From: Acidobacteriota bacterium
GTDB taxonomy: Bacteria; Acidobacteriota; Vicinamibacteria; Marinacidobacterales; Marinacidobacteraceae
Assembly: GCA_022826825.1 (NCBI GenBank)
Contig: JAJDUD010000028.1
Coordinates: 1-64,000, forward strand
Length of the DNA stretch: 64,000 bases
Direction of reading: 5' to 3'
The position numbers and the translations under genes were made by a program. Shown piece by piece: positions 48,179 to 52,534 of this stretch. Within the stretch, counting starts at the first letter, position 1; each line of letters starts with the position of its first letter. The notes beneath the pieces are model-generated. The model saw only the letters and a list, made by a program, of their open reading frames with translations. It did no database searches and was not told where the DNA came from.

Positions 48179-49378
48179 ATGAAACCTGTTTCCGGGTTGT
48201 CTCGCCGGCGGTTTATCGGCGCCGTTCCCGTGGCCGCGGGCGTGAGCGCCCTGGCTCTGGAGCGCGCTGCCGGGCAGGGCGGGGGCGCCGTCTTCGGAAA
48301 GAGCGGCCTGCGGATTCTGAGCGAGCGGCCGGTGAACGCCGAGACCCTGGTTGCCGACCTCGATCCCCGGTACACGTCCAACGACAAGCACTTCGTTCGC
48401 AACAACGGCGGCCTGCCGGAGCGCGCCCTCTCCGGAAGCCTCGAAGGCTGGTCGCTCCGTATCGACGGCGAGGTGGGAAACACCCTCGAGTTCTCGCTCG
48501 ACGATCTCCAGGCGCGCTTCGAGACCGTGAGCCGCGCTCTCGTGCTCGAGTGTGCGGGCAACGGGAGGGCGGCCTTCCAGCCGGGGGCCTCGGGCAACCA
48601 GTGGTGGCTCGGCGCGGTCGGTTGCGCGCGCTACACCGGCGTCCGCCTCCGGGATGTGCTGGGCGCGGCCGGCGTGCGCGACACCGCCGTTTACGTCGCC
48701 TACTACGGGGAGGATCCGCACCTCAGCGGGAATCCGGACGATGTCCCGATTTCCCGGGGCGTCCCGCTCTCCAAGGCCATGGACGAGTCCACCCTGCTTG
48801 CCTGGGAAATGAACGGCGAACCCCTGCCGCCGCACCACGGATTCCCGCTCCGGATCGTCGCCCCGGGGTTCCCCGCCTCGGTGAGCGGGAAGTGGCTGCG
48901 CCGCCTCTGGGTCCGGGACCAGGTCCACGACGGCCCCAAGATGATGGGCTACTCCTACCGGGTGCCGCGGTATCCGGTCGCGCCCGGAACCGACGTGCCC
49001 GAGGAGGACATGGAGATCATCGGACCCATGCCGGTGAAGTCCATCATCACCCGTCCCGAGACAGGCGTCCGTCACGCCGGCGGAGGCCCGCTCGCGATCC
49101 GGGGTTGGGCGTGGGCCGGTGACGGGCCGGTGAACGCGATGCACCTGAGCGCCGACTTCGGGACCACCTGGCTCCCGTGTCAGCTCGAGGAACCCGAGAA
49201 CCCGTTCGCGTGGCAGCGCTTCGAAGGCTCCGTGGCCTTCGACATTCCGGGCCACTACGAACTCTGGGCGCGCGCGACCGACCACCAGGGACGCCAGCAG
49301 CCCATGGTCGTTCCCGGCTGGAACCCGCGCGGCTACCTGAACAACGCCATGCACCGGATCGCGGTGACGGCTCTCTGA
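48179..49378 (+). CDS. Molybdenum sulfite oxidase family enzyme (SorA-like), Tat-exported
   Basis: 399 residues. Tat signal LSRRRFIGAVPVAAGV. The Moco domain holds VLECAGNGRAAFQPG with the Mo-ligating Cys125, and WWLGAVGCARYTGVRLRDVL. The dimerisation domain is C-terminal (PLAIRGWAWAGDGPVNAMHL, PGHYELWARATDHQGRQQP). It lacks the haem b5 domain, as in bacterial SorA and plant enzymes. It would oxidise sulfite to sulfate, or a related S-oxide, in the periplasm. The cytochrome gene follows after one base, as in sorAB. Confidence 0.92.
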   Translation: MKPVSGLSRRRFIGAVPVAAGVSALALERAAGQGGGAVFGKSGLRILSERPVNAETLVADLDPRYTSNDKHFVRNNGGLPERALSGSLEGWSLRIDGEVGNTLEFSLDDLQARFETVSRALVLECAGNGRAAFQPGASGNQWWLGAVGCARYTGVRLRDVLGAAGVRDTAVYVAYYGEDPHLSGNPDDVPISRGVPLSKAMDESTLLAWEMNGEPLPPHHGFPLRIVAPGFPASVSGKWLRRLWVRDQVHDGPKMMGYSYRVPRYPVAPGTDVPEEDMEIIGPMPVKSIITRPETGVRHAGGGPLAIRGWAWAGDGPVNAMHLSADFGTTWLPCQLEEPENPFAWQRFEGSVAFDIPGHYELWARATDHQGRQQPMVVPGWNPRGYLNNAMHRIAVTAL

Positions 49379-49379
49379 G

Positions 49380-49784
49380 ATGAAACGTCTGCTGCTTGCC
49401 GGCGCCATCGCGTTGCTGCCGGTGGCCGCGTTCGCGAACCCCGAGGAACGCGGCCTCCCGGCGCTTGCCGCTGTCCAGGAGAGCGACGGGCAGGCGCTCA
49501 TCGACGAGAACTGCCTCTACTGCCACGACGACAGCTACATCAGGGCGTTGCACCTTCCCCGTGAAGAGTGGGAAGGCGTGCTCGACATGATGATCGGCAT
49601 GGGCATGCCGCCGCTCGATCCCGAAGTCCAGGAGCAGATCCTGGACTACCTCGAGGAAGAGCACGGCCCCCGGGAGAGTTCCCCGTCGCCCGGAGCCGGG
49701 GCCTCGGCGGACGCGGAAACGGAGGACCTCCCCTGGGCGTTTCCGCGCTACCGCCCCAATCCGCTCTTCTGGCGGGAGCGCTAG
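49380..49784 (+). CDS. Monohaem c-type cytochrome (SorB-like partner)
   Basis: 134 residues with a signal peptide (LLLAGAIALLPVAAFA). One haem site CLYCH (Cys45, Cys48, His49) and a methionine-rich loop DMMIGMGMPPLDPEVQ for the axial Met. A Pro/Ser/Glu-rich linker and WAFPRYRPNPLFWRER at the end follow. Its start lies two bases after the sulfite oxidase stop, so it should accept electrons from that enzyme. It converges with the candidate selenoprotein gene. Confidence 0.88.
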   Translation: MKRLLLAGAIALLPVAAFANPEERGLPALAAVQESDGQALIDENCLYCHDDSYIRALHLPREEWEGVLDMMIGMGMPPLDPEVQEQILDYLEEEHGPRESSPSPGAGASADAETEDLPWAFPRYRPNPLFWRER

Positions 49785-49832: not shown

Positions 49833-49849
49833 CCGCTACCGCAGCGGGA
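49833..49849. terminator. Hairpin at the end of the candidate selenoprotein frame
   Basis: CCCGCT (49833-49838) pairs with AGCGGG (49844-49849) around ACCGC. The TAG that ends the read-through frame (49836-49838) lies in the left arm. It lies between two convergent genes and may stop transcription from either side; there is no T-run. That the hairpin sits at this TAG, and not at the internal UGA, fits the longer gene. Confidence 0.35.
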
Positions 49850-50426
49850 TGTCGGTGAACTCGTGTTCGTAGATCGCCTCGCGGATTTCTTCGGGACTCG
49901 CGCCGTCTTCATGCATGTCCTTGGCCAGGAGGACCTCCTGGAGGCAGGTGCTTCAAGTGGCGGCGTGGTTGTCCACGTAGCAGTCGAGCAGGCTTCCGTG
50001 ATCCTCCGACGCCCCGTGGCAGCCGCAAAGACACGGCAGCTGGACGAGCACTTCCGGGATCTCCTTGGCGATGGCGTAGGTCGTCTGCAGCGTGTCGTTC
50101 TCGTAGGTGTTGGGAGGGAGGGTCACCGGGAAGGGACGCGCTTCCTCCACCGAGTCGTAGTAGGGGAACGGCTTCGCCGCCTGACCTCCCAGGTTGTACG
50201 CGTCGGCGGACAGGTCCGAGGCCGGCTGCAGGCTGCTCTCCACCGTCGTGTCCTCGAATGCGGCGATGAAGAAGACCGCGGCCCCCAGTACGAGCAGGCC
50301 GATCGCGAGGATCGGCGCGGCGCCCCACCCCTTGCGGGTCGGGGGCGATGGGGTGGCTACCGGTGCAGCCGAGGTCTTCCGGGCCGCGGAGGTCCTGCGG
50401 GGAGGCGGTGTTCGGCGTTTCTTCAT
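49836..50426 (-). CDS. Candidate selenoprotein: PCYCGC-type thiol protein with in-frame UGA (UxxC)
   Basis: A 196-residue membrane-anchored protein read through UGA at 49953-49955. TM helix at about residues 37-58 (APILAIGLLVLGAAVFFIAA). Then QLPCLCGCHGASEDH (Cys132, 134, 136), SLLDCYVDNHAAT (Cys149) and the UGA at codon 158, followed in frame by STCLQEVLLAKDMHEDG and SPEEIREAIYEHEFTDIPLR to a TAG. PCYCGC-motif (PF13798-like) proteins have a CxxC at this point; here it becomes Sec158-x-x-Cys161. The downstream 36 codons keep strong GC third-position bias and family-like sequence. Likely a periplasmic redox or metal thiol protein. A TGC to TGA error or nonsense mutation is the alternative. Divergent from 50453 by 26 bases. 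Confidence 0.72.
49925..49941 (-). promoter_or_regulatory. SECIS-like stem-loop after the in-frame UGA
   Basis: On the coding strand, starting 11 bases after the UGA, CCAGGAG pairs perfectly with CTCCTGG across the loop GTC; opening one pair gives a GGTCC loop. The loop GGU begins 18 bases after the UGA. From memory, E. coli fdhF has GGU starting 19 bases after its UGA in a short minihelix, and the GU in the loop is the SelB contact. The stem lies inside codons that also make sensible protein, as bacterial SECIS elements do. Confidence 0.55.
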
Positions 50427-50452: not shown

Positions 50453-52534
50453 ATGCTCAGAATCTGGCTCTCCGGCGCCGCGGTCTTCCTCGCGGCGATG
50501 CTCCTGTTCGTGGTGCAGCCGCTCGCCGCGCGCAGCCTGCTGCCCTGGTACGGCGGGGCCCCGATGGTGTGGGCCGTCGCGCTCTTCTTCTTCCAGGCGG
50601 TGCTGCTCGGGGGCTATCTCTACGCGCACCTGCTGGTCACGCGCCTGGCGCCGCGCGTCCAGTTGGCGGCCCACGGCGCCCTCCTCGCCCTGGCCGCGCT
50701 CGCCAGCCTCCCGCCGCTCCCCGCATCCGGCTGGGCGCCGGACGGCGGGGAAGCGCCCGCCGGGTGGATCCTGCTCACGCTCCTGGTCACGCTGGGGCCG
50801 GCCTTCTTCGCGCTCGCGGCGACCACGCCGCTGGTGTCGGCCTGGGTAGCCCGCGCGGGCCCGTCGGGAGCCGACGATCCGGCGGCATCCGGCGTCTACC
50901 GGCTGTACGCCCTCTCGAACGCCGGGTCGCTGATCGGCCTCGCCCTCTATCCGCTGCTGCTCGAGCCCCTCCTCGGGCTGGGCGCCCAGGGACGGCTGTG
51001 GTCGGCGGGGTTCGTCGGCTTCGCCGCGTTGACCTTCCTGGTGGGCGCCGCTTCCGTCCGGGCCTCCGCCGGGGACGCGGAGCGCGCCGCCCCGCCCGTC
51101 CGGGCGGGGCTCGGCGACTTCCACGTTGCTGCCTTCCTGCTGGCCGCAACCGGCTCGCTGGCGCTGGTCGCGGTCACCACCCATCTCACCCGCGACGTGG
51201 CGGCGGTGCCGTTCCTGTGGATCGCGCCCCTCGCCCTGTACCTGCTCACGTTCATCCTCGCGTTCCGGGGCGGAGATCCGTATCCGCGGCGGTTCCTCGT
51301 GCCGTTGCTGCTGGCTTCGGTGGCGGCGTGCTTCTACGTCTGGTTCCAGGACATCACCTACGGCCTCGACAGCGCCCTGCTCGCCCACGCGGTGGCCGCG
51401 CTCGGGTTCCTGTTCACCGGCTGCTGGGTCATCCATGGGGAGATCGTCCGGCGGAAGCCGGCCCCGTCCCGCCTCACGGGTTTCTACCTGTCCATGACGG
51501 CCGGAGGGGCTCTCGGGGGGCTCCTCGCCTCCATCGGCAGTCCGCTGCTCTTCCCGAACGTCTGGGAGTATCCGCTCGCGCTGGTGCTCGCCGTGGTGGT
51601 CGCCTTCCGCGTCGCCAAGCTGCCCCGGGGGGCTTTCCGGTCGCTCGCCTGGAAGGCCATTCCCGCGGCCACCCTGGGGGTCGCCATCGCCATCAGCGCC
51701 CTCGAACACCGCCGCCCGCTCACCGCCACCCGGAATTTCTTCGGCGTCGTGCGCGTCATGGAGGCCTATCCGGGCACTCTGGAGTGGCGGCGCGACATGT
51801 GGCACGGGGGCATCGCGCACGGCTCCCAGTGGTTCGCCCCGGGACGCCGCCGCGAGCCCACCCTCTACTACTACGAGGGGACGGGCATCGAGGCGGTGCT
51901 GAACCGCCACCCCCACCGGCGGCTGGTGCGGCCCCTCCGGGTCGCCGTCGTCGGGCTCGGGACCGGGTCCATCGTCGTTCACGGGCGGCGCGGGGACCTG
52001 TTCCGCTTCTACGAGCTCGACCCCCAGGTGGTGCAGGCGGCGCGCGACTCCTTCACCTTCCTCGCGGATGCGCCGGCGGACGTGGAGGTCGTGCTGGGAG
52101 ACGGCCGGCTGAGCCTGCTGCGGGAGGAAAGCGCCGGAGAGGAGGGCTTCGACGTGATCGTGCTCGACGCCTTCGCCGGCGACGCCATCCCGGTCCACCT
52201 GCTCACCGCCGAAGCGTTCGATCTCTACCGGAGCCGGCTGGCCCCGAACGGCACCATCGCGGTCCACATCTCGAACCGCCACGTGGACCTCGCCCCGGTG
52301 ATCCGCGCCCAGGGCCTCCGCCTGGACCTGCTGTCGCTGCTCACCGTGAGCGACCCGGATCCCGACCTGTTCCACTACACCGCGACCTGGGTGGTGCTCA
52401 GCCTGAACACGGACCTCATCACGGACCCGAGCCTGCTCGGGAGGGCGGAGCCCTGGGCCGGAGAGGCCGCCGATCCGGACGACCGGTTCCTCTGGACCGA
52501 CGACCATTCCAACCTGCTCGACGTCCTCAGGTAG
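50453..52534 (+). CDS. Multi-TM spermidine-synthase-like fused membrane protein
   Basis: 693 residues. The N-terminal about 410 residues hold about ten TM helices (LSGAAVFLAAMLLFVVQPLA, WAVALFFFQAVLLGGYLYAH, and more). The C-terminal domain has the spermidine-synthase Rossmann fold: VAVVGLGTGSIVVHGRRGDL, FRFYELDPQVVQAARDSFTF, VEVVLGDGRLSLLREE and DVIVLDAFAGDAIPVHLLT. The Asp residues of the polyamine site are largely kept (GDGR, DAF). The family is widespread ('fused MFS/spermidine synthase'), but the reaction is unproved; a methyl/aminopropyl transfer on a membrane substrate is possible. Confidence 0.88.
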   Translation: MLRIWLSGAAVFLAAMLLFVVQPLAARSLLPWYGGAPMVWAVALFFFQAVLLGGYLYAHLLVTRLAPRVQLAAHGALLALAALASLPPLPASGWAPDGGEAPAGWILLTLLVTLGPAFFALAATTPLVSAWVARAGPSGADDPAASGVYRLYALSNAGSLIGLALYPLLLEPLLGLGAQGRLWSAGFVGFAALTFLVGAASVRASAGDAERAAPPVRAGLGDFHVAAFLLAATGSLALVAVTTHLTRDVAAVPFLWIAPLALYLLTFILAFRGGDPYPRRFLVPLLLASVAACFYVWFQDITYGLDSALLAHAVAALGFLFTGCWVIHGEIVRRKPAPSRLTGFYLSMTAGGALGGLLASIGSPLLFPNVWEYPLALVLAVVVAFRVAKLPRGAFRSLAWKAIPAATLGVAIAISALEHRRPLTATRNFFGVVRVMEAYPGTLEWRRDMWHGGIAHGSQWFAPGRRREPTLYYYEGTGIEAVLNRHPHRRLVRPLRVAVVGLGTGSIVVHGRRGDLFRFYELDPQVVQAARDSFTFLADAPADVEVVLGDGRLSLLREESAGEEGFDVIVLDAFAGDAIPVHLLTAEAFDLYRSRLAPNGTIAVHISNRHVDLAPVIRAQGLRLDLLSLLTVSDPDPDLFHYTATWVVLSLNTDLITDPSLLGRAEPWAGEAADPDDRFLWTDDHSNLLDVLR

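Follow-up and report, generated by a model that had tools for sequence, protein, structure and literature searches.

The closest described system is a family already present in the selenoprotein literature and in profile databases. A 2026 review that tabulates prokaryotic selenoproteins, both known and predicted, includes CYCXC (OS_HP4) with the domain PF13798, a UxxC motif and one Sec, and credits the entry to a 2007 paper (PMC13188914). The OS_HP4 entry of a 2022 review gives UxxC and names no domain (PMC9312934). The bacterial SECIS (bSECIS) model set out in the former review allows stems of 4-16 bp and loops of 3-9 nt whose first two bases include a G, at a distance of 16-37 nt from the UGA and with an energy of -7.5 or lower (PMC13188914). 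A second point of comparison is CcmH, described as a three-helix bundle with its redox cysteines in the loop that joins helix 1 to helix 2, and held in one species by a single membrane helix (PMC3884852). A literature search, with most subscription journals outside its scope, returned no paper combining PCYCGC with selenoproteins; nor was any link between PF13798 and CcmH met when the two names were searched separately within the same kind of scope.

The window, i.e. the whole stretch of 64,000 nucleotides that was analysed, harbors a predicted gene of this kind (Table 1). With Cys written for Sec, its protein matched PF13798 (PCYCGC) at 44 bits (cut-off 25) and the NCBIfam profile NF041379 (OS_HP4_CYCXC, 'CYCXC family (seleno)protein') at 99.6 bits, above the curated cut-off of 90, and it shares with NF041379/OS_HP4 the CxCGC core and a single Sec in UxxC. 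An earlier reading of the letters alone (hereafter the sequence-only reading) had correctly assigned the gene to a PF13798-like family. It had also called the selenoprotein new, which does not hold: since NF041379 and the two reviews already list OS_HP4, the family is not new, and the window gene is a well-supported additional member of it. Family members also gave other weak Pfam matches, for instance to RAG1_imp_bd (12 of 63, best E 0.0066), which were attributed to chance. The named relatives, 66-91% identical, come from MAG records that mostly carry the label Acidobacteria, with one labelled Vicinamibacteraceae and one Dehalococcoidia.

Table 1. Features of the CYCXC locus and its neighbors in the window.
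Feature	Position	Strand or orientation	Basis
CYCXC/OS_HP4 selenoprotein gene, predicted	49836..50426	-	TGA=U translation; PF13798 and NF041379 profile matches
Sec codon UGA (codon 158), inferred	49953..49955	-	column TGA 46, Cys 62 in 108 parsed loci
Sec-x-x-Cys motif U158-S-T-C161	49944..49955	-	TGA=U translation and alignment
PCLCGC motif, residues 131-136	50019..50036	-	alignments of 63 and 88 sequences
Probable N-terminal membrane anchor, ~residues 32-57	50256..50333	-	read off translation by eye
SECIS-type hairpin: 7-bp CCAGGAG/CUCCUGG, loop GUC, loop 18 nt past UGA	49925..49941	-	published constraints, by script
Small ORF with CLYCH motif	49380-49784	convergent with CYCXC gene	no Pfam match
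Molybdopterin oxidoreductase, precedes CLYCH ORF	48179-49378		PF00174 and PF03404
693-residue ORF	50453-52534	divergent from CYCXC gene	no Pfam match

With TGA read as U, the frame comprises 196 codons followed by TAG at 49838-49836, and its sole in-frame TGA (49955-49953) is codon 158. Both codons lie where the sequence-only reading had put them, and the Sec-x-x-Cys motif that it proposed is found in the translation. Upstream, the basic N-terminus precedes the hydrophobic stretch at about residues 32-57, as judged by inspection of the sequence, and C132, C134 and C136 of PCLCGC are invariant in alignments of both 63 and 88 sequences.

If the UGA were an ordinary stop, the product would be truncated and the downstream frame decayed or unused. 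Translation table 11 does end the ORF at 49953, after 157 residues, and the case for Sec decoding is itself drawn from sequence. Against this stands the pattern of variation in nine genomes of f1, the taxonomic family of the window genome. The variable sites at codon positions 1, 2 and 3 numbered 8, 8 and 32 in the 50 codons upstream of the TGA and 9, 7 and 23 in the 38 codons downstream of it, and 40, 40 and 39 in the 120 nt past the terminal stop. Because the substitutions downstream are of the coding type in the f1 loci, translation appears to run on past the TGA; the end of the family domain also lies beyond it, and the TGA aligns with the Cys of relatives. An ordinary stop is thus very unlikely, as the earlier reading had held, and the stretch that it took for coding is coding, although 38 codons long rather than 36.

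The Sec column was followed across relatives by searching for the NF041379 profile in 198 relative genomes. Matches were found in 102 of these, and 11 were above the curated cut-off, namely nine in f1 and two in a second taxonomic family, f2. Out of 110 loci fetched, 108 were parsed, the others being a partial match (L038) and a locus at a contig edge that reads as Cys (L131). Among these 108 homologous loci across the class, 46 had TGA in the column and 62 had Cys, as read by a parser that sought only TGA or Cys near the site, other residues being beyond its reach. The expectation that relatives have Cys where the window has UGA was thereby borne out. As an independent check, MAFFT alignments of 63 and 88 sequences, with near-duplicates and others omitted, gave an invariant Sec column when TGA was read as Cys. 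TGA is present in all nine f1 loci that were found, the window's among them, and Cys in both f2 loci (G011 and G012). The remaining 37 TGA loci, which belong to other families, all score under the NF041379 cut-off; annotation relying on it would miss them, and may leave Sec genes in this branch without a label. One genome of the same genus as the window genome (G007, 92% complete), with the Sec machinery present, had no NF041379 match, which reflects either genuine loss or a gap in the assembly.

A separate scan identified nine named MAG contigs with the same TGA and hairpin, eight of which are f1 contigs already counted. The only addition is L141 (JAJDWB010000007.1), labelled Dehalococcoidia, with an 87% identical gene, the same TGA and hairpin, and similar neighbors. 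This is perhaps a mislabelled or mixed bin, or otherwise a case of transfer.

Downstream of the UGA, the window hairpin falls within the bSECIS ranges with its 7-bp stem, GUC loop, distance of 18 nt and energy of -16.5 kcal/mol (computed for the 47 nt after the UGA). The perfect 7-bp stem and the SECIS distance were thus rightly recognized from the letters, while the GGUC loop was not: the loop is GUC with 7 bp, or GGUCC when the stem is written with 6 bp. In the E. coli formate dehydrogenase SECIS, GGUC likewise sits atop a short hairpin soon past the UGA, though in a gene and with a stem sequence unrelated to those of the window. The identical 17-nt hairpin occurs in all nine f1 loci, window included; as it is invariant among close relatives only, it offers no covariation, and its identity is modest evidence when taken alone. 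The bSECIS rule is moreover loose, a perfect stem of at least 4 bp at the right distance being found also in 50 of the 62 Cys genes. Stems of at least 7 bp occur in 9/9 f1, 36/37 other TGA and 3/62 Cys genes. Two further measures were rejected: folding energy did not separate the groups (means -16.2 in TGA and -15.6 in Cys genes), and a longer outer SECIS stem, derived from single folds, showed no excess of pairing in TGA genes (191 of 296 cells, against 340 of 496 in Cys genes).

The TGA loci outside f1 have another hairpin, GUCGCG-CGUGA-CGCGAU as against CCAGGAG-GUC-CUCCUGG in f1, and also a longer interval between CxCGC and UxxC than the f1 genes. Their 6-bp helix is complete in 37/37 loci versus 3/62 Cys loci, and its loop is CGUGA in 36 and CGGGA in one (L119, in G131). 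In L123 (G116), two base pairs of the helix are altered on both sides with pairing kept. The 18-mer GTCGCGCGTGACGCGATG is present in 35 of the 37 genes and in none of the 62 Cys genes; when only genes with the same VARDAM peptide are compared, the counts are 35/36 for TGA and 0/9 for Cys. At codons +6, +7, +9 and +10 past the TGA, the commonest residue is written with a single codon in the TGA genes and with several in the Cys genes, and codon +8 is CGT in 36/37 of the non-f1 TGA genes, as against several codons in the Cys genes. The non-f1 hairpin is frozen at synonymous sites in the Sec forms and variable in the Cys forms. Two of the three Cys loci with a complete 6-bp helix, L104 (G097) and L109 (G083), both of family f9, retain the old stem GTCGCG...CGCGAT with a changed loop. 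This hairpin remnant looks like a relic, as if Cys had replaced Sec.

The window genome (3.98 Mb, 77 contigs, 93% complete) has the genes that Sec decoding calls for. The search for selA, selB, selC (tRNA-Sec) and selD that had been proposed along with the sequence-only reading found all of them above cut-off: tRNA-Sec at 69.7 bits (gathering score 47), also identified by ARAGORN as a tRNA-SeC with TCA anticodon, selB at 323 bits (cut-off 242) with both its two pieces found as well, selA at 485 bits (cut-off 268), and selD at 246 bits (cut-off 125). The cut-off matters for these calls because, in 14 control genomes, the machinery searches gave matches at E<=0.001 in 14, 14, 4 and 14 genomes, far more often than above cut-off (5, 2, 1 and 2, respectively). 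Two PF00578-type genes in the same genome each have one in-frame TGA, L195 (G000:C43:103872-104261) in GGW-U-PFC and L197 (G000:C39:46783-47232) in TGG-U-TLQ; from their sequences these are probable further selenoprotein genes, with the TGA within a peroxiredoxin-type domain. The classic Sec user formate dehydrogenase alpha (TIGR01591) gave no match in this genome.

Machinery and codon were also compared over the relatives. For this, tRNA-Sec was counted at 56 bits or more, a threshold of our own choice that 140 genomes reach (169 of the 198 pass the gathering score); genomes without selB numbered 53-54, G189 was entered as Cys and G193 was excluded from the table. Among the 46 genomes with a TGA copy, 35 had both selB and tRNA-Sec, four selB only, six tRNA-Sec only and one neither, while the 55 genomes with Cys copies only were distributed as 28, 3, 5 and 19 over the same categories. 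Hence selB and/or tRNA-Sec were found in 45/46 TGA-copy genomes, and both were absent in 19/55 Cys-only genomes. The single genome with a TGA copy yet neither gene at the thresholds used is G166 (77% complete).

Judged from these comparisons, the UGA of the window gene is very probably read as Sec, standing as it does at the position of the relatives' Cys; a conserved SECIS-type hairpin comes after it, and the genome has the complete Sec machinery. Decoding by other means, be it general readthrough or UGA as Trp in the window genome, is extremely unlikely, with Cys in the column at all 62 non-TGA loci, a Sec tRNA and SelB in the genome, and a non-f1 hairpin that TGA genes conserve and Cys genes do not; nothing was found in favor of such decoding. 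An error of sequencing or assembly could have produced the TGA from a Cys codon by a single base change, and the relatives, being metagenome assemblies, could be prone to it too. This is so improbable as to be negligible, given that nine separate f1 assemblies, window included, share the TGA and the hairpin and that 37 loci from other families have TGA in the same column.

What the protein does was approached through structure. A core model (81 residues, from 88 sequences with Sec as Cys) was all helical (pLDDT 89, pTM 0.80), with helices at 3-14 and 16-19, CxCGC at 24-28 followed by short helices, the Sec column at 50 directly before a helix at 51-65, and then a helix at 70-80; a longer model reached pLDDT 76 and pTM 0.66. 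Foldseek gave no match at E <= 0.001 for either model. Searching solved structures by sequence returned nothing at E up to 1 for the long alignment and, for the core alignment, four weak matches (E 0.43 to 1.3) that were apparently chance. In the VIA comparison of the long model, CcmH (2KW0) had a Z of 4.1 over 67 aligned residues at 3.4 A, with a designed protein higher at 5.4. This designed, zinc-induced protein tops the lists of both models, and Z scores in this range may reflect no more than a common arrangement. For the core model, VIA aligned only 14 chains and did not list CcmH, an absence that with so few chains excludes nothing.

The likeness to CcmH lies in the order helix, Cys loop, helix, G, helix, which is seen also in the CYCXC core model. 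Several CcmH proteins of the class resemble CYCXC in having a motif of the CxCG type and, after the G, a third helix; the number and spacing of the cysteines differ between CcmH (PF03918) and CYCXC. A CcmH was identified in 33 of 40 genomes, the window genome having an ordinary, separate one. When a class CcmH profile, built from 22 of 34 matches, was compared with CYCXC by hhalign, the probability was 84% (P 7.5e-6, score 39.4), and with the CYCXC core alignment 80.8% (P 1.3e-5). The score of 39.4 compares with a maximum of 22.7 in 150 full column shuffles, 15.1 after reversal, and a maximum of 34.9 (probability 69%) in 150 shuffles that kept Cys and gap columns in place. None of 63 CYCXC members matched the Pfam CcmH domain (PF03918) in a search at E up to 10, in which HMMER's filters drop most matches above ~0.1.

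In the mechanism that we propose, the N-terminal helix would anchor the protein in the membrane and place the helical C-terminal domain, with CxCGC, Cys149, His154 and Sec158-x-x-Cys161, in the periplasm. In thiol-disulfide (or thiol-metal) exchange with an exported partner, the selenol of Sec158 would act as the attacking nucleophile, leaving Cys161 or a cysteine of CxCGC to resolve the intermediate. Because helix order and a weak profile match point to CcmH, a helical reductase of apocytochrome disulfides, the protein may work in a similar way, a suggestion made tentatively and without classing CYCXC as CcmH. Just as speculative is the fuller reading of CYCXC/PCYCGC as a distant, membrane-anchored CcmH relative, one thiol of which became Sec in some lineages, giving a helical (non-thioredoxin) selenol reductase that acts on disulfides in exported cytochromes or in other proteins of the envelope, and in which at least two unrelated SECIS hairpins serve one Sec codon within one class.

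It is also possible, though again doubtful, that CxCGC, Cys, His and UxxC serve to ligate copper, zinc or haem, the protein being chiefly a metal binder and not a redox enzyme. The alignments of 63 and 88 sequences have five invariant Cys columns, the Sec/Cys column included, and one invariant His, with a second His and the last Cys near-invariant. The top VIA rows of the core model are the designed zinc-induced protein (Z 6.5) and the Cu(I) form of CueR (Z 4.5), values that may reflect a common arrangement only. The gene of a PCYCGC lipoprotein in Bacillales is reported to adjoin that of an iron substrate-binding protein. On the other hand, the 2026 review counts UxxC among redox-related motifs (PMC13188914).

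Gene neighborhoods suggested one more function, in which the protein would sense redox state on behalf of a two-component system. A homologous kinase-type ORF adjoins the CYCXC gene in 14 out of 17 neighborhoods outside f1 and f2 (among L143-L162), and the two such kinases checked by Pfam (L158 and L160) have HisKA, HATPase_c and Response_reg domains and lie 9 and 6 nt from the CYCXC ORF. The kinase ORF cluster, however, is without any f1 locus, and is hence not a neighbor of the window gene, and the synteny may be merely inherited; for the window protein a sensor role is unlikely. Farther on, most of the kinase-adjacent loci have one ORF of sigma-70 type and another for an NtrC-type regulator (Pfam, L158 only). 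The neighbors of the window gene, for their part, recur at the f1 loci and in part at f2. Gene context varies and yields no firm function.

The additions made here are thus a new member, two SECIS types and a CcmH-like lead, the function of CYCXC being inferred. For a family hitherto only predicted, the Cys/TGA column over 108 loci and the frozen hairpin provide strong comparative support for Sec. The standard code would end the Sec genes of this family at the UGA. As one codon is served by two types of hairpin and some Cys genes still carry the old hairpin sequence, it becomes possible to test how SECIS elements are gained, lost and replaced, and the CcmH-like reading, if true, would give the uncharacterised CYCXC family its first testable function.
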